In this document: one piece after another, positions 6,361 through 38,389 of the stretch
How the letters are laid out: each line of letters opens with the position of its first letter
How positions within the stretch are numbered: position 1 is the stretch's first letter
Source of the DNA: Ulota crispa
Lineage: Eukaryota > Streptophyta > Bryopsida > Orthotrichales > Orthotrichaceae
NCBI GenBank assembly: GCA_963920765.1
Contig: OY987246.1
Location: forward strand, 684,501 to 748,500
Reading direction: 5' to 3'
Length of the DNA stretch: 64,000 nt
The notes under the pieces: model-generated
The model's database searches: none
The model's input: only the letters and a program-made list of their open reading frames with translations
Told to the model about the DNA's origin: nothing
Translations under genes and position numbers: made by a program

Positions 6361-7183
6361 TTAACATGTCCAGAATGTTCCTGCATTGATTTGATTTGAG
6401 CTTTCTGTGCTTTGATCGTTTAACTTGATAGAAACTGAGCTCTTCGTAGTGTGTAGGTGTTTAGCGGTTTCAGGTTTTTGCTCTTTCTTGAATGTCGAAG
6501 ATCTCTTCAATCACTGCCAGAAAATTTAGCTGTGGCGACGCTTAAGTACTTGTCGCTATGAGATTTTCTGTGAGGAGATTCACGATTGTTTCTGATGGAA
6601 AGAGCTGGATTCTTGAATAATCTGTCTGTGCAACTGTGCTCCTCGCAAAAGGACTTTTCGCGACATTGCATGTTATGTTCGACTGTCGCTAATTTGCGAC
6701 TACGGAGGAATTATGGATATTATTAGGATACGTTGTGCGCAATTTATAGTGCTCTTGTTAATTTGGATTTCTTGAAGTTTTATGTCCTGTTAGTCTGTTT
6801 CTACTTGAATTGCTAAATGATCTTGATCTTCGGAGATCTCTTTAATGACTAAAGCGACATTAACGGACGCGACTCACGTACAGCCATGTTTAATTCAGTG
6901 AAGAGTGTCACGATAACTTTTGATGAGAATCACTCGATCCTTGTGTATTTTGCTTGAGCGACAGTGCTCTCGTTAAGACAGATTTTCGCGACATTGTGTG
7001 CTCTGTTTAACTGTCTCTGATTGAATCGCAAACGCTAATAGCACAAGTAGGAAGGAATGGTTAATATATGGACATGTTTTAATCTGAAGCAGGGAACGCA
7101 GATCAGGTGTACGAGGCAATTACTTCGGTGATTAGAATACCGTTAAGCAAAAAGCTAGACTCAAGCCGAACCAGGATCTTGCC
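6361..7183 (+). promoter_or_regulatory. Probable promoter and 5' leader of the DYAD-like gene
   Basis: This unique stretch, less AT-rich than its surroundings, precedes the start at 7184. It contains a diverged internal duplication: a segment near 6490-6690 and one near 6815-7030 share, in the same order, GAAGATCTCTT or GGAGATCTCTT, then GATGGAAAG or GATGAGAAT, then TTTTCGCGACATTG. The frame of the start codon has a TAG stop at 7133-7135. I cannot place the transcription start. Confidence 0.5.
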
Positions 7184-10100
7184 ATGAACTCGAGGACTTC
7201 CAAGAGATTTTATGGCTCAGACGAACTTCCGCAATTGCCACCGAGAAAGCGGCCTGGCTATTGGCTTCGGGAATGGCTTAATCCACCTAGGTCTTCTGTG
7301 AACTGCGCGGGCTCATCGTCCATTCAATTATCTGCGATGGCACATTCTGGTACTTCGTTAGCTAAGGATCTTCGAGCCGTTAGCGAGCCTGTCTGCAAGA
7401 AGAGGAGATACGCTCTGCTCGGGAGCCTAGACATGGAGGAGGAGCAAGTCACTCGGGACCTCTGTACAAATTTCCAAAACGTGGAGTTCAGAACTCTGGA
7501 TGTCGTGCCTTGGAGGAGCAGCAGCAATTCCCCCAATGGAATGGAGCTGCAGCAGAGCGGCACTACTTCTGAGGAAGATCTGATTCGTGACGGGAACGGT
7601 AACGACATCGACTCCGCAGATACAGTCCGAAGTGCGGCTGAGCTGTTGACGCAGCTGACCTGCGGTAGGAACGGCGATAGCGGTCTTCAATATCGGGACG
7701 TTGCCTCTTGCGGTCAAGACGCAGAGCAAGACTTGGAAAAACCTATTCGATGGGGGGTCAAGAAGAAGGTCACTTATGAAAGTAGAAGAAGTGTAGACTC
7801 TTGCGATCTTGGCCTATGCACTGGTTTGATACGTAAATTTTCACATGGCCATGAGAAGACTGCTGCTAGGATGCCTGCCCAAACGCAAGACAAGAAGATT
7901 GGTTCTGACAGAGGCCGTCAGGACTTTCATAATCGTGTCACGAAATGGGATCAGTCACCGCCAAATTACCCAGCCTCCTCGAAGTTTTGTAAAGAAAGGA
8001 GGTCTTCAGGAGATGATGGTACTAATTTCAGCCCTGATCAATCGCCAGTGGTGAATTTCCAAGGACCAAGAGAGAAGCATAACACATCGCCTTCGAGTAG
8101 TCCGGCATCTCCAGGAAACATACTAAAGCTGCCAAAAGAAATGCAGGGCCGATGGTCGTCGGAGAGGTTCGTAGACGTTTAAATTATAGTCGTGCAAGTT
8201 TGGTTGCTTTGAAATGCCGTTCGACTTGTTTGTGTTTCTGCGTGAAGAACTTAATGTCATAATTAGAGTGGCAAAGGTCGTTACTCTGCGAAACAGTTTC
8301 TGAGAGTCTACATTCATGTCCTTTTTGTTGCTTCTAACCAAAGAATGTTCCCGTAGTTTGTAGGGTGGAATATGAGGTGTCACTGACATTTCATCTCACG
8401 ACTAGATCGCTGGGTTTTAGAGTTTCTATATTTTTGTTCAGAATTTCACGGAATTGACTCAAAAGGTCATCAAACCTTGAAGGGTACAATGCATTTAGGT
8501 AGCGTAGCCAAAGAATGGTGTCAATTCTACGCCACTGATTTCCTTTCCATTGTTTACTTGTACTTAACATTTACCGGTCTTTATACATAACGCAGCAATG
8601 ATCGATATCATTGCCTTGTCAAGATATCATTGCCTTGTCACAAGTTGTTGTTAAAAGAGACGTCGGGATAATGCGTTTTGGGGCTCCAATTGAACTGAAG
8701 TCTTGTTCGTACATCCCACGCAAATGCTCTTGCAGGTACAAAACTGCGCAGCTAAAGCTTATCGATATAATGCATGCGAGAAAGGCTGTACCGGGAAAAC
8801 CTATTCTGAGACCTGCGCTACGCGAGGAAGCAAGGAAACACATAGGCGACACTGGGTTACTTGATCACTTATTGAAACACATGACGGATACAGTGGTAAG
8901 CACTGGCGAACGGTTTCGTCGTAGACACAACTCTGAAGGGGCCATGGAATACTGGCTTGAACATGCAAGCCTGATGGAATTGAGAAAAGCAGCTGGAGTA
9001 GAGGATCCGTCATGGATTCCTCCTGTTGGATGGAAAGCTGGTGACAAGCTGCCAGACCGTAATTGGCAATTATTTCGAGGCCTGACTTCATCTGAAGCTG
9101 CTGAGATGGAGAATCTGAAGGACACGGTCGAGAGACTGAAAAGGTAAGTGGCGTATGAATGTCGTCAATTTAGCAAATTTGACATTAATTGAAATGGCGA
9201 ATTTTTAGAATGTCACCCGGGATGGCACTTTTTAAGCCCTAGTCTGGAACCTCAGATCTTTACCTTTCCTAGATTTTAAACTTCTGTGCACTTGAACGTC
9301 TCAAGTTTGGTGCTGTGAAACATGTCGAATCATTTAAAATGACCATAGCACTTACTGTGACTTCGGAAAATCTAATGAAAATATGATGCTGCGGTTCAGT
9401 GAAATGGGCGTTTTGTGTGGGAGCATCAAGGTATCCAATCAGAAGGGTGTGATGACCAGCCTGAGCGTCTCTCACCTCAATCGGATAGAAGATGAGCCAG
9501 AAAGAGCAGACGAAGAGGATTTAAGACAGGTGAGCTTGGTGATGCTGGAAGCAGTATTTACGTTGGTTAAACGAACCTGATTTCATGATATATATGCTCT
9601 AGAGAGCTGATTCATTATAATTGTTACAAGATTCATGATCTATCTTAGAAGCAATAATATCTCTTCCAATATGCTTGGGTTTAGAAATCCTTAGGCAATC
9701 ATGGGATTGGTCTGGCTTCAACAAATTCAGGCCCTTGCCAGAATCCTGTATCAAGACCCTTGATTTACAGTCATGCTGTGTGGTATTTAACATTTGCATA
9801 GTCAACTTTCTTTACAGGGGATTCAAAAGAATACTACTGAATTTAAAACCGATACGACCACTTTGGAGTTGCAGCAATATCATGGTGAACGCAATTCAGG
9901 GTGAGGAGAGTTTATTAGAAGCACTTAGCATTGCTTAATTTGTAGCAAGATTTCAATATATCCATACACCAACACTGAGGAACATCCAACATAGGGCGTA
10001 AAGTTTGAGAAAATATCTTCCTCTGCACGGGGGGCTGAACAATCGGACAGAGAATAGCAGCTACTTAACATGACTAGTTGGTTTACACACCTGCAGTACT

Positions 10101-11709
10101 GGCCGTTGCACTATAGACCTTTACGACATCCCGTTTTTTAATGGGGTTCCATTTTTCTGTTTGCTGACTCGGTTATCCTGTTTCAAACTTCGTGTAATGA
10201 CAGAGCTCACTTAGACATGGAGAGGTTTCAAAATCTCGACAGAGCGGTACTGCAAATGCATAAGGTACAGAATTTTATCCTTTTTCATCATGTTTATCCA
10301 GTCCCTTTAGTACCTAGTCAAAGCAGAATTGTGACACAAGTGTACCATTATAATAGGACTTTCTATCTGGAGCACACATATTACGGTGATGGTGACAATA
10401 AAATACTTATTACTGCTCAACATTGTGGAATCGTGTGCCAACAGGATAGAAAACCATTGAAAGAAATTTCCTTAACATCTGGCAGCCAAATTGACCTCCA
10501 AAGCGAGCTTCAAGATGTTCGCAAAACTGTTGCTGAGATGCAGGTAATGTTGAAGAGGTTTTAAACTCCCGGTTATTGCGTAACGGCAATTAGAAAAAGC
10601 CGAACATTATGATATAAAATGATGGCGAGAAGTAGTAATCATTTCAGACATTTGCTTACGGCAATTAGTTCATTAAATTGGGAGCGAAGCTGAATCTCAA
10701 GATCTTCTGAAACATTCAAATCTGCAAAGTTGTTAACACCGCTTCTTGCTGGAATTAATACCTGCAGGCGGAAGTCAGCCACATCATAAGTATACTTGGA
10801 ATTGTGCAACCGACGAAGGCAACGGCCCTAAGATACGAGATTGAGACAAGCACGGCTGATGTTCCCAAGCCGCTCATGCTCACAGCGACTGGTCACACCC
10901 GCAGCATCACGTGTGGAATATTACCTGAACCAAAACCTCCAGGTACTTCAGAGCCGGTACTCCACGACCGCGTAATCTCAAAGCTCGATGGTCCAATTAG
11001 ACAGTGTTCAGATGTGAAGAATGCCAACCACAGCGGTGGCGAGGTGGATGTTTCTGTCCCGTACACCGATGGACTTTCACAGGCTCTCTCGAATTACAAA
11101 CTTGTGAACCAACCTGATCGATTATCAGCTCACGATGAGACAAGAAAACTCCTGGAGAGCAGTAGGAGCATAACGCAGACACACGATTCTATGCCGGCGA
11201 ATGTCGTTCATAGTCGACCTCAGAATTTTAAGCCTATGTTTACCAACCAGCCAACTGGATTCAGACTTTGCCGCCCTCCAGGTAGTTTTGTGTGGCCCAG
11301 CATGATGAATTCTACGACTAAAAATCCTCCCTTTTCTAGGCAAGAGCAGATTGTGGCACTGCGGGGACTCGATGCTGGCTCTGGGAACATTCCAGTGTCC
11401 ACGGCAGTGGGCCCAGCAAACTACTCAAGCAGGTCGATTGCGGAGTCTCAAGTCGCTGTGACAATGGCAACTATGTTTGGTTGCATGGCCATGGCTCCCC
11501 AATGTAAGACTATACCTACGCTACCTCTGATGACCAAAGAAATCGATGTGAGTGTGAGAGACAGACCGGGTAGTACAGCCACTACTGATTTGGGGCAATG
11601 CTCCTCGGCGCAGTCCAACCCAGCTCTCTCCCTGTCATTGTCTCTTTCAACGTCTTTCGGAATTCCTCGTGGCATCAGTCCCTCTCTGAAGAAACAAAAG
11701 TCTATCTAA
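7184..11709 (+). CDS. SWI1/DYAD/AMEIOTIC1-like protein
   Basis: Proposed exons are 7184-8166, 8736-9143, 9400-9529, 9818-9900, 10204-10264, 10445-10543 and 10768-11709. All junctions are GT-AG and keep frame, giving 901 residues. Residues about 328-450 match the plant SWITCH1/DYAD/AM1 domain: RYKTAQLKLIDIM, then ARKHIGDTGLLDHLLKHM, then FRRRHNSEGAMEYWLE, then WIPPVGWKAGDK. A coiled-coil-like stretch follows (LQSELQDVRKTVAEMQ, about 573-588). The first 327 residues look disordered, with basic clusters (RKR near 21, KKRR at 72-75) and many Ser-Pro pairs near 290-320. The C-terminus carries LSLSLSL (875-881), an EAR-like pattern. In angiosperms this family works in the nucleus in meiotic entry, sister-chromatid cohesion and axis formation. 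The start has an upstream in-frame stop at 7133. The acceptor at 9400 is the least sure; 9460 also keeps frame. Family assignment is firm; meiotic function here is inferred. Confidence 0.85.
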
Positions 11710-20302: not shown

Positions 20303-23300
20303 CTAATTCTTCAACGTGGTTTGGATGAGCATACGTGACACAATGTAGGGGTCCACGTTGGCAGCGGGTCTGCGGTCTTCCAAGTAGCCCTTGCCCTCCA
20401 GCGACACTCCCAACGGAATTCGAATGGACGCCCCCCGGTCCGCCACGCCTGACTTGAAGGTGCCGATGTTGGCCGTCTCGTGCTGACCTGCAACACCCCC
20501 AACAAAAATATTATTTAAAAAAACAAAAAACAAAGCCCATGAAAACAAAGCCCATTAAAATTTTCAGTAGCAAGGTGAATAAAGAACTTGAAAAACGTAG
20601 AGATAAAGCATTTGATCCACCACAACACGGATAAGATTTGCACGTGATTCAATAAGCATTTCACCCAGTTCAAGGTCATGAACTGAAGAAACGAAGTATA
20701 ATATCACATTCTTGAGAGAGTTGGAAGACCGTCCTTTTAGGAAGAAAATCGGACTTTTGAGAACTTTGCAATAGTGAAGATGATGAAACCCAACACTAAC
20801 AGTAATTTTCATCAATAATTACTCCAGTGTACAATTTTTAAACGGCCTGGCAACAATAATGATGTTAGAGAATCTCCTGCCACCCTCCAATTACCAAGCG
20901 CCCTTCAATTGATACTGTCTATTTAAGAGGTGGATGGCCTCTTGTATCCCCAACAATACAACTCACCAAACATACTTCCAATCAATCACAAGTCTCCAAA
21001 CTTCCAAAAGCAATAAGTAAGATATCATTTATTACGACGACATGCTAATCCCAAGAAAAAATATAGCTTGTAGAGGGTTAGTGACCGCTTCAAATATGGC
21101 TTATTTGAGAGGGGAAAGTAAAGGTAGAGGCTAACACACACTAGAACTGATTGCTTATCATCCAAAAATTAGGGGGGAGGGGACATTTGGAGGGTGGAAG
21201 GAGATACTCTTATTACAAGAAGAAGAAAAAATGAGTTGCTTCCACGTCGTAAACCATGTGAAGTCCTAGAATCTAGAGAGTTGCATGCACCTCCAAGTGG
21301 ACAACCAATGAGTGGAACTTTCCAAGGTAAGACAACCTGATTGTTGAGGCAACCTACACTAGATAGTGCGTTTAGGTTGCCTTAACAATTAGGCTACCTT
21401 ACCTTGGCAAAGTTACCTCATGACTCACCCTGAACCATGTAGAAGTGCATGCAACTCTCTTTATGCTACAATAATTCTTGGTTTTGTCAAAGTTTAACTT
21501 CCTTACTCCCTACCTTTGGCGCTTGTTGCTTTGCCCAACCTCTACTTGCTTCATCCACTGTTTATTATAGTAGTTAATGACAAAAACAACTATAGTCTTG
21601 GTAAACATTTAAATAGTGTGAAATGTCAAAAAATTAGTATGGGGCAACCTAAATGCACTAAAGTGGTGTAAATGAAATAGGGAAAATTTCATGGATACCC
21701 CTGAAGTTTGCAAAATTTTCATAGATACCCCTGCTTTTTCAGAAATTTTGGAAATACCCATGGATCAAAAAAATTAGGCATTTGTTTTGTTGTGCATGCC
21801 ACTTCCCTTCTTCCTTTGTGTGCACACTATTTCTTTCTTGTTAAGCAGGCGCACAAAGGAAGAAGGGAAGTGGCATGCACGACAAAACAAATGCCTAAAT
21901 TTTTGGTCCAAAGGTATTTGTGATATTTCTGAAAAAGCAGGTGTATCTATGAAAATATTGCAAACTTCAGGGGTGTCCATGAAATTTTCCCAAGAAAATA
22001 TTCAGTGAAGGAGAGAGAGGTGGTGGGGGGAGGAGGGTACCGGTGAGGCGGCGCTCATTGCCAAAGCCGTATTGAGCGATGTGCTCGGCGTGCTTCTTAG
22101 AGAGCTTCTCAATGGCGGAATGGATGGCTTTGATGCCGCCATCTTGCCGCATGGACTTGGTGGAGTAGTTGGTGTGTGCACCGGCGCCGTTCCAATCGCC
22201 TTCCATGGGCTTGGGCTCAAAGGTGCAGGTGATGCCGAAGTCCTCGCCCAGTCGGTGCAACAGCCAGCGGGCAATCATGACATGGTCGCCCACTTCCAAC
22301 GGCCCAGCAGGGCCGATTTGGAACTCCCACTGCCCGGGCATGACCTCGGCGTTGATGCCACTGATCTTCAGCCCCGCCTTGATGCACGCGTCCATGTGTG
22401 CCTCCACCAATGGCCGTCCATACACCGCCTCCAACCCCACGCCACAGTAGAACGGACCCTGAGGGTGTGGAAAGCCTCCCTCTGGCCACCCATACACCTG
22501 CGCATCAAATCCTAAACCACATTAGTACATACTCCCTCTGTTCCTCTAAAAAGGGGCCCAAATCAAACACATTTCTTGTACCACTAAAAAGCTCCCTTTG
22601 CTGATTTCAAATGCTGAGAAAGCGTTTGTCATGGTCAATGGTCTCATGGAGGTAAGTTAAGAGATTAGGAAGCATTGCTCTCATAGCAAGCTTGGCCTTG
22701 CCCATATGAAGTATCATTGTTGCTACTAATATATAAATCATCAATAAATGAGGAGCTGACAACATGCACAAATATGATATTTTTCTTTGCATGGAATTTG
22801 GGTGCCCAAACAACAACATCAAAAGCTGGATTTTGCATACGTTTGGTAGATGGTATATTGATTCTAGAATGCATGTGTCACTAGCACAAAGACTAAAAAC
22901 ACAGTTAATCCTTTGCAAGGAAGCTTTCTTTTTGGACGATATTAGAGGAATAGAGGGAGTAACCCTCATCCGCATCTTCTCCAAGACCAACAAAATGCCA
23001 TTCACTCTACCAATTTTAAAAGGTTTGAGGTTCTCTTGCACGCTCAATTATAATTTTATACTCAAATCCTAGAGCATACTCAAAACATGCTTGTTAAATA
23101 ACCATGACAATCAAAAAGAACATCAGCTCTGGACCAACTAAAGAGGGAGAACCTTTGTACTGACAAAAGCCAGGACCTTACTCAAAATGCAAGCCACTGC
23201 AATAGGGTACAGAACCTCTTAACGACCAAGCTTAGCTGCTTCTTGTTTTAATATGTAAACAAACAAGAGAATTCTCCTAGTATACAAATCTTTCCATACG

Positions 23301-26300
23301 AGAATCATGTTTGTTTCAAACAAATTCTACAAAATGCAACAACGTCAAGAACAACATGTTGCATCCTACGCTTACCCCACATACAAAAACACCATATCTG
23401 CATTCAATATTATATACTAAGCATTACTTTCTAAATCACGATTGAATATATGTGTCTTTAAGATATTTACTTCGAAATGATATGAGAATTGAGCACAATG
23501 TAGGTTGGTCTTTGAGAATTTCTTTTTTTTGTTTTGATATAAATGAAAGAAGATTCTTTGCAAGAGTAAAATACAAAATCTCCAGCTAAAAAATGGCCTT
23601 AGGATATAACTGAAAGAGACATGACCAGACTTAGCTCAAACAACGGAACCTAACGCAACAGAAAGCAGCTTTTGTTTTTTTGTTTCAACTCAGAAGTTTA
23701 GGAAAACGTGGTGGTGGGGTTGGTTGGGCGCAATGAGGAGGGGGGTGGTGTGTACCTTGCAGGCCTTGTTGAACATGGTGTACTCTTGCTCGAAGCCAAA
23801 GAGGGTCTCCTCAGCCAAGACGTCAGGCGAGAGGAGGTCGGCGATCTTGCGGCGCGTGTTGGTCTCGTGGGGCGTGCTGTCGGGATTCAGCACCTCGCAC
23901 AGCACCAGCACCGCATCGTCACCGCGTATCGGGTCCGCGCATGTGAACACCGGGTTCAAAATGCAGTCGGAGAATTTTCCCTCTGCTTGCCCAGTGCTGC
24001 ACATGTGGCAACAACACACGTGTTAAGGTAGGAAGCTCATAAACCGACCATCTAAGGGCTGAAACTGAATTTTGGGGAGGTGAAACTTCTTGAAATGAGT
24101 TATGAAATTTTGAAGGGGAAAGGCCCATAGGGCTCTAAAATGGTGCACTTCCTCAAATGTACATTGCTTGTACAGTGTTGAAGGGCTATGAAAAATAATA
24201 CACAAAGAGCGTACATTTGAGGAGGTGCACCATTTTAGAGCCTGCACACTTTTAGAACCTCCTACCTTTGTGCATTCTCTCTCTTCTCACTCACTCTCTG
24301 GAAGTCCCATTTTCTCGTATAGATTCACCAGAACAAAGTTAGTGTTTCGTACAGCGGCGACCAGAAACAGGTGTCGCCTACTTCGTAAGATTTTTGGGCA
24401 TTTGGTGGTTGGGATCAATGACCGGGAGAACCGCTTAACAGGTTGAAATGCAAAAACGCGACTGAACTTACTAACTACAGGAAATATCCGGCCAAGTTCT
24501 CAAAAAAAATGTATATTTATACTATATGTAAAGGCATTAGGTGGTACTGGCTAGTGAAAACCGGTTGAAAGAAAAAATGCCGGATATTGGCCGGTGAAGC
24601 TCAACAATCTCCCCAGGTTCTGTTTGCAATAACAGGACATCCTACACCTTGATTGGTGATAAGGTCGTTAAATTTTTTGGGTTGGCTTGTATTGTTAGAT
24701 GTTAACTTCACACACGTCCAAGTAGCTAACCAGTGAGCATGAAGAGGTGATCAGAAATGAAGAGGAGAGATTATAACATGGTTCCAATGACATACTGAGA
24801 AGCATTTAGGACAAGTCAAAGGTTGTATGAGGCTTAATCCAGTACAAAATATCACTTTGGAACGGATTGCATGTGTGTGAAGGTAAGGAATTTGACATTG
24901 CAAGAAATCTTGCAACACGACTGGTGCAAATTGGAATCCATTCTTTGGTTTGTGGTTACTCGATTTGGTCAAGTTCAGCTTTAACCTAGTCCAGTTGATA
25001 AGAATGAGCGGAAAGAAGTGACACCAACATGACTACTATGTGACATAATAAAAAGTTGGAAGAGGTAGTATAATATTGAGCTATTTTTTTAAGATGAATT
25101 GCTGAATTGGACAATTGTCAAATGTCCTCATAAAGTGTGGCCGGTTAGTCTTAAAAGCAAGATCATACTTGGGGGTTAGGGTTAAATAGTGTTACCAAGA
25201 GGCTCAAGAATATTTAGCTACACTTCTGGACTAAAATCAGTATGCTAACACCACTCTTAACACCAAGTGCAAACATACCTCAAGCTTCTTATCTCACCCT
25301 TAATGTTACTTCAGAATTTATAAACTCAAATTCAATAATAATATACCAAAAAGTGGGACTCAGAAACCCAAACAATCGTATTCATCCTCTCTTGATGTGA
25401 TAGGTGCGAGAAAGGCGTGGTCCCGGAGGTGTGTGGCTGCTCACCTGGAGCCATCGAAGGACCACTGAGGAAAATCGAGAGTTCCAGCCTTGATTGGCTT
25501 CTGCAGAACCTTGGTTTTGGACCGCATTTCATTGAAGCGGATTCCCTTCTGCCCCTCCTGTCCGTCCATCCAGATGTATTCTGCCTTCTGAGCCAATGCC
25601 AGGATCTTAAACACACCACCCTGCAAAAAAACCAAAAAAACAAAAAAAAAACATCACCCAATCACACCTCGCCACTTGTACATTCTCAAAACATTTCAAT
25701 TCAAAATGCACAGAAAATCATGAAAACGTTGCATTAGCAGCTGCTCTAAAAGCTTCACTTGATACAATGCACGACGACAGAATGTTCCAAAGGCGTGATA
25801 TTCAATGCAGAATCTCCGAGTGCTACCGCTCAGACCTATCAACTTTCTTTATTTTTTTGGGTATCAATCATTCGATTGAGTAGAAGGAGATCATCACAGC
25901 GGTAACTGAGGAAAAACCGATCAAACAAAACCCAAACACCCGATTCAAAACACATTCAGAGCGAATGCAATACTCAGACCTATTGTGGTATTTTCAAGAA
26001 AAATCGCATCGAGTAGAAAAAAAAACAGAAAAATTAACCCCCTCAGTGAGCAAGACACTGAGAAACGCAGAATTTCGGAAAATATAAGACTGGATTAAAA
26101 AAAAAAAAACCTGTGTACCTGTCTGGGGGTAGCATTTCTGCCAACGGAGACAGCGCTGCTACGGAGCTCATTCTTGTTGTTGAGGTATCCAGAGACTCCC
26201 AACCCTGAAGCCTACAACACCGCAACATAACAGAGTTCCACACTTAGCCCAAGATGATAACCAAAGTGGGACGGAATGCAAAATTCGCGTCAATCTTTGT

Positions 26301-26999
26301 GAGCAGCTTGCTCAACGAGTATCCGCAGAAAAAACGAGAGGAGAAAGATTCGAAGACACAGTTTGGAGAGACAGATTAAGCGCCATGTCAACCTCGAAAG
26401 AAGATAAAAAGAGGCTCCTGCTCCACTTCCAGAGAGACTGGGGTTCGTGCAAATGTTTGACACAATGCCGATCTCTCACAGACGAACGTAAAGAAGATTT
26501 CAAGCTCTTCTTTGCAAGTCTTTACGCGACCAATGCATGTACAGAAAATGCAATGTATCCACTGAAAAGGACGTATATTCAATTTCAAACGATGGTGAGA
26601 CATTCGATCGGTTTCCATGTCTGTTAACATGTGCATGTGGGTGTGTTGGGCTGTTGGGAAAACAGAGGATTTGGGAAGCAAGCACATTCAAGCAAGCAAT
26701 GTATCCACTGAAAAGGACTTCTATTCAATTTCAAACGGTGGTGAGACATTCGAATGAAGAGCATCGGTGTCCATATCTGTTAACATGAGCATGTGGGTGT
26801 ATTGGGCTGTTGGGAAAACAGAGGATTTGGGAAGCAAGCACATTCCAGCAAAGATAAGTGGAGAAAGAGAGAGAGAGGCATTGTGGTGCACCTGGCCTGC
26901 AGAGAGCGGCAACGTCCGTAAAGGTGAGCTCTTGGTGGTGCCGAGAGCGAGCTGCGGCGACACGACGGCCTTGGACACGGAGATCGACGCAGTCGCCAT
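20303..26999 (-). CDS. Glutamine synthetase, bacterial-type GSII (GSIIB), plastid-type N-terminus
   Basis: It makes glutamine from glutamate, ammonium and ATP. Exons in transcript order: 26892-26999, 26119-26211, 25445-25620, 23756-23996, 22041-22497 and 20303-20487. All introns are GT-AG with phases 0,0,2,0,1, giving 419 residues. Hallmarks are FDGSSTGQAEG (122-132), FGFEQEY (192-198), [16 protein letters not shown] (306-321), NERRLTG (353-359) and [13 protein letters not shown] near the C-terminus. [23 protein letters not shown] and [14 protein letters not shown] are typical of bacterial GSII (Streptomyces, Frankia and gamma-proteobacterial types), not the eukaryotic GS1/GS2 form. The catalytic core begins near residue 80. 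Exons 1-2 encode a Ser/Ala/Thr-rich extension lacking acidic residues until about 52, as in chloroplast transit peptides, with KILALAQ as a possible processing region. All key motifs are intact and I see no frameshift. The start is the first Met of a GC-rich exon. Plastid location is inferred. Confidence 0.95.
21357..21668. mobile_element. MITE family D, copy 2, in GSIIB intron 5
   Basis: The left end CACTAGATAGTGCGTTTAGG and right end GCACTAAAGTGGTG are imperfect inverted repeats, with TA outside both (21355-21356 and 21669-21670). The bases just to its left (about 21230-21354, ending GGCAACC) look like part of another family D copy cut at a TA, so this copy appears inserted into an older one. 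Confidence 0.75.
21680..21991. mobile_element. Long fold-back (hairpin) element in GSIIB intron 5
   Basis: The whole segment folds on itself. It starts GGGAAAATTTCATGGATACC and ends with the near-exact complement at 21972-21991. The inner words GGCATTTGTTTTGT and ACAAAACAAATGCC also pair, leaving a loop of roughly 20 bases near 21836. Arms are about 145 bases. It ends 49 bases before the 5' splice site of intron 5 at 22040 (minus strand). Open frames on either strand inside it are artefacts of the palindrome. Confidence 0.85.
22532..22959. mobile_element. Stowaway MITE with CTCCCTC termini, copy 2, in GSIIB intron 4
   Basis: It begins CTCCCTCTGTTCC and ends GGAATAGAGGGAG, flanked by TA (22530-22531 and 22960-22961). 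The interior matches the copy at 15314 in the same orientation. It lies inside intron 4 and its end is only 34 bases from the exon 5 acceptor boundary at 22497, so it sits at the branch-point side of that acceptor. Confidence 0.9.
24026..24267. mobile_element. Fold-back MITE in GSIIB intron 3
   Basis: The left end AGGTAGGAAGCTCATAAACC and right end AGAACCTCCTACCT form imperfect inverted ends. An inner pair, GGCTCTAAAATGGTGCAC (about 24131-24148) and its complement near 24224-24241, is perfect. TA precedes the left end; the right flank is TT. The termini resemble family A. It stops 29 bases from the exon 4 acceptor at 23997 (minus strand). Confidence 0.7.
26551..26848. repeat. Tandem duplication of about 148 bp in GSIIB intron 1
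   Basis: CAATGTATCCACTGAAAAGG occurs at 26551 and again near 26697. TTGGGCTGTTGGGAAAACAG follows in each unit at the same spacing. The two units differ at several positions and by a short indel, so the duplication is not brand new. It lies close to the 5' splice site of intron 1. Confidence 0.85.
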
Positions 27000-35791: not shown

Positions 35792-38389
35792 TCAATACTC
35801 TTGCCGACCATCGCCTTCAGTAATGATTTCCTTGAAACTAGCTCCACCTGGAATCATAGGCAACACATGTTCCTGATGGGGAACGATGACGTCCAGGAGG
35901 TACGGTCCTGGAGTTTCCAGCATCTTGGCAATAGCACCCCGCAAGTCTTCTTTCCGTGTGACACGGGCAGAAGGAACCTTGCAACCCTCAGCAATCTTGC
36001 AGAAGTCAGGGTAGATATCCGCTTCAGCTTCAGGATCTCCCAAATAGGTGTGGGCCCGGTTAGCCTTGTAAAATCGATCTTCCCACTGGACCACCATCCC
36101 CAGATGTTGATTGTTCAAGACCATAATCTTAACTGGCAACTTTTCCACGTGGATCGTTGCAAGCTCTTGAATGTTCATGATGAAACTCCCATCTCCGTCG
36201 ATATCAACTACAGGAATGTCAGGGCAAGTAGCGGCGGCACCTAGAGCGGCTGGCAAACCAAAACCCATGGCTCCGAGTCCACCCGAGGTGAGCCACCTCC
36301 GTGGTTGCTCATACTCGTAAAACTGAGCAGCCCACATTTGATGCTGCCCTACTCCAGTGGAAATGATCGCATTGCCACCTGTCATCTCGCACAAAGTCTG
36401 GATGGCCAACTGCGGAACAATCACCCCGTTGTCAAATTTCGGGAACTTCATGGGCCACTTCAACTTCATCCCATCGAGCTCCGCTCGCCAGCTTGAGAAG
36501 TCGGGCCTTGTGGATGGACCCTCCCGAATGAGCTTGTTGAGCCCGGCAAGAGCCAGCTGCACATCTGCACAGATGGATACATGAGGCTGCTTGTTCTTTC
36601 CGATCTCAGCAGGGTCGATATCAATGTGCACAATACTGGCCCGGGATGCAAACGTCTCCAACTTCCCCGTCACGCGATCATCGAAGCGCACTCCGAAAGC
36701 CAACAGCATGTCCGCCTGGTCGATAGCGTAATTGGCATACACAGTTCCGTGCATCCCCAGCATTGACAGATATCGCTCGTCCGAAGCAGGGAATGTCCCC
36801 AAACCCATCAAAGTCGACGTCACTGGAATACCCGTGAGCTCGACAAATTCTCGAAGCTCCTTGCTTGCGTGTAAGCATCCACCGCCAGAGTAGATGACGG
36901 GCTTCTTCGCAGTCGCAAGGAGACGGATGATCTGCTGCATCAAGGAAACCTGCGGAGGGGATGGAAGCCGACTCAAATACGACTGCAGCTTCATCGGTTG
37001 ATTCCACTCGGGAATCGCCAGCTGCTGCTGAATATCCTTGGGGATATCCACAAGCACGGGACCAGGGCGTCCTGAGGCAGCAAGGAAAAACGCCTCTCGA
37101 ATGACGCGGGGGATATCTTCAACCGTCATGACCAGATAGTTATGCTTCGTAATCGACCGCGTCACCTCCACAATGGGCGTTTCCTGAAATGCGTCAGTGC
37201 CGATAAACCTCCGTGGAACCTGGCCAGTGATGGCTACCAACGGAACGCTGTCCAGCAACGCGTCTGCCAACCCGGTCACCAGATTGGTAGCGCCTGGCCC
37301 TGACGTTGCTATGCAGACCCCCACACGTCCGGAGGACTTGGCATACCCTTCCGCAGCAAAAATCTCCCCCTGCTCGTGCCTGCAGAGCACATTCCTGATC
37401 ACCGTGGACCTTGTAAGCGCTTGATGAATCTCCATCGAAGCACCGCCCGGGTATGCGAATGTGGTGCGCACGCCCTCCCTCTCCAAAGCCTCCACGAGAA
37501 TGTCCGAGCCTTTGCGAGGCTCGTCACTAGCATACCTCGATACAAAATCCTTCGGCGTCGGTGATGTCAAGCTTTTGCCACTGCTCTTTCGAGATTCAAT
37601 TGCGTCGGGAGCGGCCACGTCCGCTTCCTTCACCGCCACGGATCCCATACTCTCCATGGGCCTCTTTTCACTCAACACAGCATTAGGGCTGACGACGACG
37701 GTTCTGCGCATCGCGAAAAAATATCACTTTGTAAGTAAGTAACACGGCTGACCTAATTCCACCTTTTTTTTATGTTCATAGGGTTCTCCGGCCAATGTAA
37801 AGCGGCAAAACTCACGGTGAAGCCATACATACACTTCTCGGCATTCACCAGAGGAGCAATTCACTGGGTCTTGAAGTCTTCAACGTCACTAACCAGTTTC
37901 AAAAAGTGAGACTATGGCATCTTTTAATACAATGACGTGTTAGTTCCGACAAAATATCTCGGAAGTAGGACACACAGCGAGCGAGCCAGTTTCAAAACGG
38001 CATGCTTGCTTCCATTTGGACCAATTCCTTCTTCCGAAAGTAGTAACATAACATGGAGAAGCCGAGTCCTCGCCAATTGCGAAACAGAACAGAACATTTC
38101 AAAGCAGAATATCAATCAAGCCCTAAAAGTACATCCCATGCGTCAGCAGCAACAATGTTAAGCTCAGAACGAGACTATGACTCGAGTAGGATCCAATAGA
38201 AGCACAGGGCATAAACGAGAGTAATTAGGTTAGGTCCGAGACAGAGAACACTCACATGCGATTAGTGGCCTTGGCGCCCAGCAATGTGGCGGGGCTTGGG
38301 GAGGATTTTTGAAAGGTTGCCAAAGGGGCGCGACGCCAGGAGACGGAGGAGACGGAGGAGGCAGCAGCTGCTACAGTGAGCGCGGCCAT
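35792..38389 (-). CDS. ALS: Acetolactate (acetohydroxyacid) synthase, catalytic subunit, plastid-targeted
   Basis: It catalyses the thiamine-diphosphate-dependent condensation of pyruvate (or pyruvate with 2-oxobutyrate), the first common step of valine, leucine and isoleucine synthesis. Exon 1 is 38256-38389; exon 2 is 35792-37703. The GT-AG junction splits one codon and gives 681 residues, near the plant norm. Exon 1 encodes a Ser/Ala/Arg-rich transit peptide. The catalytic Glu lies in CRHEQGE, and the ThDP/Mg motif runs from GDGSF to VLNN. Herbicide-site residues are in the usual sensitive state (Ala in [14 protein letters not shown], Pro and Ala in [13 protein letters not shown], Asp in FGVRFDDR, Trp585 in VVQWEDR). 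The exception is Gly664, at the place of the seed-plant Ser. An in-frame ATG at 37711 would give a shorter protein without the exon 1 transit sequence, so I prefer the spliced start. A CAGGTAAAAA donor-like word upstream of the ATG allows a 5' UTR intron. Confidence 0.96.

Follow-up and report, generated by a model that had tools for sequence, protein, structure and literature searches.

The gene on the minus strand between positions 20303 and 26999 of the window, the 64-kb stretch of DNA analyzed here (contig C5, 684501–748500), raises the question of whether a land plant can direct a glutamine synthetase of bacterial type (GSIIB) to its plastids by means of a transit peptide encoded on two exons apart from the enzyme core. 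The reading that we consider very probable makes it a nuclear GLN2 (GSIIB) gene from a bryophyte resembling mosses, with the first ~67–77 residues serving as a plastid transit peptide and the mature part being a GSII of bacterial type.

The original prediction had assigned the gene to a land plant, and the light-harvesting proteins of the genome agree with this and point to a moss or a near relative as the most likely host. The best PDB matches of Lhca3 are 8htu, 7xqp, 7ksq, and 6l35 (427–435 bits; the next scores 400), all four presumably from Physcomitrium patens. For an Lhcb gene, 8htu and 7xqp (457 bits) rank after the longer chain 9vfj, which is matched in two stretches. The genome also contains a CP24 gene, as fits a land plant. 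Eight Lhcb-like matches with near-equal scores lie within a single 380-kb stretch (G000:C4:21391382-21771811), which is likely to be a recent gene cluster.

Structure of the gene

Splicing of six exons yields a coding sequence of 1260 nt, open throughout, that specifies a glutamine synthetase of 419 residues and a stop codon. All five introns (680, 498, 1448, 1258, and 1553 bases) have GT–AG ends, and the coordinates predicted at the outset, including the junctions 26892/26211 and 26119/25620, proved exact. The gene thus looks real. Its features, in order of transcription, are as follows.

26892..26999, minus strand: exon 1; start codon (Met-Ala) and residues 1–36, putative plastid transit peptide; open, phase 0; donor CAG/GTGCAC
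26550..26851, minus strand: tandem duplication of two units 94–95% alike; intron 1, non-coding
26119..26211, minus strand: exon 2; residues 37–67, Ser/Ala-rich; symmetric 0–0, open; donor CAG/GTACAC
25445..25620, minus strand: exon 3; boundary of putative transit peptide and core (residues 68–77) and start of the beta-grasp domain (AEYIWMDG); Pfam PF03951 at 79–164
23756..23996, minus strand: exon 4; core, with the EQEYT motif inside
22041..22497, minus strand: exon 5; catalytic domain (motifs, 28 residues); Pfam PF00120 at 189–320
20303..20487, minus strand: exon 6; C-terminal part of the core, with RGASIRI and EDRRP; stop codon

Both ends of exon 1 and of exon 2 fall in phase 0, and the two contribute 36 and 31 residues, 67 in all. 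Pfam places the beta-grasp domain at residues 79–164 and the catalytic domain at 189–320, and the motifs, 42 residues in addition to EDRRP, are intact; these motifs matter for catalysis. Four of the five donors, both early ones among them, deviate from GTRAG, the usual consensus, which speaks against the model. Inverted-repeat, MITE-like elements occupy 21680–21991 in intron 5 and 24131–24242 in intron 3.

Two other parts of the window may be mentioned. An intronless stop-to-stop frame of 643 codons on the minus strand (35792–37723), 9 kb from the GSIIB gene, contains all three TPP-enzyme domains and by its likeness is presumably an acetolactate synthase, an enzyme that is plastidial in plants. 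On the plus strand, long stop-to-stop frames of 348, 181, 140, and 316 codons follow one another within 7136–11709; no Pfam match was found for them at E ≤ 0.01. No tRNA, and no RNA family above its gathering score, was found in the 64-kb window.

The N-terminal extension and its destination

The match to the core begins at residue 79 in Pfam and at residues 78–81 in 16 GSII chains of the PDB, in accord with the predicted start near residue 80 after an extension encoded by two exons. Residues 1–67 consist of 25% Ser and Thr, or 37% with Ala included, and contain one acidic and seven basic residues (Lys and Arg) for a net charge of +6; the 342-residue core, for comparison, has 10% Ser and Thr and 43 acidic residues. 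In its make-up the extension thus resembles a transit peptide, as had been proposed from its Ser/Ala content, the assignment resting on composition and on the start-codon argument given below. Among 7,799 open background stretches as long as exon 1, only 13 reach its codon score; for exon 2, a modest signal, the count is 334 of 10,735. Among 21,931 segments of 67 residues, drawn from 78 protein entries that are nearly all GSII relatives, there is none with as few as one acidic residue. Shuffling of the bases of exons 1 and 2 nevertheless gave open translations with one acidic residue or none in 245 of 2,635 cases; the low acidity is partly an effect of base composition and by itself says little.

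It is unlikely that the extension serves mitochondria, either alone or together with plastids. Mitochondrial signals were called by TargetP in some GSIIB proteins, such as those of C. reinhardtii (PMC2978018, PMC9310647), and PMC2978018 cites dual targeting of Arabidopsis GLN2. Against such a destination for the window protein, residues 1–20 are devoid of Arg, the maximal hydrophobic moment is low (0.20 for 18-residue windows within residues 1–40), and the sequence is rich in Ser and Thr. Together with the Ala content, the net charge of +6, and the single acidic residue, these properties fit plastid signals better than mitochondrial ones.

Stronger evidence for the extension than its composition is provided by the positions of potential start codons. 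In frame upstream of exon 3 lie 11 codons, none of them ATG, and beyond these a TGA. Exon 2 contains no in-frame Met, and an in-frame stop lies immediately upstream of it. No further in-frame Met follows Met1 until residue 85, within the core sequence AEYIWMDG. An upstream start exon is therefore required; were there none, only a start at Met85 would be possible, and AEYIW would be lost. Because exon 1 spliced straight to exon 3 would also stay in frame, a shorter presequence is possible through skipping of exon 2.

These observations bear on the proposal that the protein is cytosolic, exons 1 and 2 being mispredicted or confined to a minor transcript and translation starting from another first exon. 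Such an arrangement would agree with the 2010 report on GSIIB of a moss and a liverwort (PMC2978018), but it is very improbable: a scan of introns 1 and 2 found no alternative first exon in phase 0 (ATG...AG/GT), exon 3 lacks an in-frame upstream ATG, a start at Met85 would cut the conserved core, and the codon score of exon 1 is high.

Affiliation of the core

Of 40 matches in the PDB, the best is 4bax (427.6 bits), with the 15 other GSII chains scoring 372–406. This enzyme, which we take to be actinobacterial, groups with the actinobacterial rows of our tree and shares with the window protein a core 59.9% identical over the kept columns. It differs in being a chain of 344 residues, matched from residue 4, that has no comparable N-terminal extension. 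At 17 alignment columns that separate 67 bacterial and viral rows from eight GSIIE rows, the window protein agrees with the bacterial state in 13, with the eukaryotic one in two, and with neither in two.

For the phylogeny, 215 rows were aligned; 111 remained after an 80% identity cut, which spared ten rows (window, own-genome, and PDB), and 76 after thinning of the 46 viral rows. The bacterial rows had been chosen by similarity to the query, which is a bias of the set. In the mixture-model tree of these 76 rows, the eight GSIIE rows form one side of a 100/100 branch, with the window protein outside. The bacterial-type core that had been predicted is thus upheld, and the gene is a nuclear, intron-bearing one that exists alongside GSIIE.

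The position of the protein outside GSIIE is less sharply defined. It stands on its own branch beside the GSIIE and bacterial groups. In the mixture-model tree, the window protein and all GSIIE rows together form one side of a 74/77 branch. A placement beside GSIIE was also obtained with FastTree and midpoint rooting (support 0.921); in view of the 74/77 value, we do not claim it. Grouping with 13 Myxococcota-like rows was not rejected (p 0.343, a guide only, the group having been picked after the tree was seen). The label itself is uncertain, since it comes from one named row, L050, and for three further rows the genome also contains loci whose titles read "Proteobacteria" (L026, L047) or "Rhodobacterales" (L063).

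Descent of plant GSIIB from gamma-proteobacteria has been published (PMC2978018). No gamma-proteobacterium appears in the titles of the best 80 of 590 confirmed GSII contig stretches, two of which say only "Proteobacteria bacterium". In the phylum of genome G002, 99 of 377 genomes have a GSII match at E ≤ 1e-60; a 16S sequence was found in 2 of 21 of these genomes. A search of plasmids brought up alpha-proteobacterial and actinobacterial GSII; three rhizobial-type loci were reduced to one in the tree by the identity cut. It is conceivable, although quite doubtful, that plant GSIIB came from a donor other than the gamma-proteobacteria, or that it is an ancient paralogue, akin to the enzyme of eukaryotes, which acquired its plastid targeting later.

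The suggestion that a plastid GS2 of GSIIE type has here been mistaken for a bacterial enzyme, for which one might invoke the transit peptide that seed-plant GS2 likewise possesses (PMC9310647), is refuted within the present sampling of sequences, since forcing the protein into a clade with plant GSIIE lowers the log-likelihood by 56.5 units and is rejected (p-AU 0.00076), 13 of the 17 diagnostic columns are of bacterial type, and identity is 59.8–62.2% to the 20 closest rows versus 50–57% to the six GSIIE rows compared.

Bryophyte GSIIB and the division of labor

The original prediction had also set this gene against a literature in which moss GSIIB lacks a transit sequence. The 2010 paper did report, using TargetP 1.1, no transit peptide in GSIIB of P. 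patens or Marchantia (PMC2978018), but a later account differs. According to PMC9310647, published in 2022, GLN2 (GSIIb) occurs in Anthocerotophyta, Bryophyta, and Marchantiophyta, and a targeting peptide is present in all of its GLN2 members; the contrast with the literature is therefore out of date. In the same paper GLN2 is predicted to be chloroplastic, with the exceptions of UpGLN2, ChrGLN2.1, and ChrGLN2.2, which are assigned to mitochondria. Five bryophyte genera were looked for in the main text of PMC9310647, and none of them is mentioned there. PMC4365561 lists the P. patens glutamine synthetase A9TIY2, which may be GSIIB or another form, as chloroplastic, and no localization experiment on bryophyte GSIIB was recognized in a literature search at the level of titles and abstracts. 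Thus bryophyte GSIIB with a targeting peptide was already reported in 2022, and the window gene adds a member to that group.

Among known systems, the closest to the window gene is the GLN2/GSIIb of green algae and bryophytes as described in PMC2978018 and PMC9310647, with which it has in common a GSII core of bacterial type, a nuclear gene, an N-terminal organellar extension, and the coexistence of GSIIE. With the plastid GS2 (GSIIE) of seed plants it shares a transit peptide and, as we infer, role and compartment; the core of GS2, in contrast, belongs to another lineage of GSII.

The remaining glutamine synthetases of the genome (274.8 Mb in 157 contigs) were sought by a search in which the best candidates were scored, so that the counts are lower bounds. 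Among the 13 matches listed, no GSIIB other than the window gene appears, and there is thus no second copy among them in which conservation of exons 1 and 2 could be seen. Further matches in this list are an intronless GSIIE on C103 and two GSIIE genes that lie 67 kb apart on contig C2 and are 95.5% alike over the kept columns. Both C2 genes begin with MTTLNELL; their AEYIW starts at residue 21, just where it does in the maize GS1 chain 2d3a, and neither has an in-frame ATG between its start and the next upstream stop. To judge from their sequences, the C2 genes start like cytosolic GS1. Since these starts resemble GS1 and a single GSIIB is listed, the window gene appears to be the only candidate for a plastid GSII among the own-genome matches listed.

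The intronless gene (L104, positions 901–2016 of the 20.6-kb contig G000:C103) branches outside plant GSIIE, and the contig probably derives from another eukaryote in the assembly. Four more Gln-synt_C matches, L105–L108 (G000 C8, C10, C7, and C2:3177334), have no significant similarity to the window GSII and are perhaps GSI-like proteins.

For the import, cleavage, activity, and physiological role of the GSIIB protein, the following scheme seems most likely. The precursor would be synthesized in the cytosol and imported into plastids, with cleavage near the boundary of exons 2 and 3, and the mature enzyme would assemble as a GSII oligomer. In the plastid it would form glutamine from glutamate and the ammonium of nitrite reduction and photorespiration, while the cytosolic enzyme would be supplied by the two GSIIE genes.

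With a targeting peptide on two small exons apart from the core, a gene model from which these exons are missing loses the peptide. Missed small exons could explain the disagreement between the 2010 and 2022 accounts of bryophyte GSIIB, if the gene models of those papers differ in this way. The window gene supports the view that bryophytes retain the acquired enzyme of bacterial type for nitrogen assimilation in the plastid, a role that passed in seed plants to a duplicated GSIIE.
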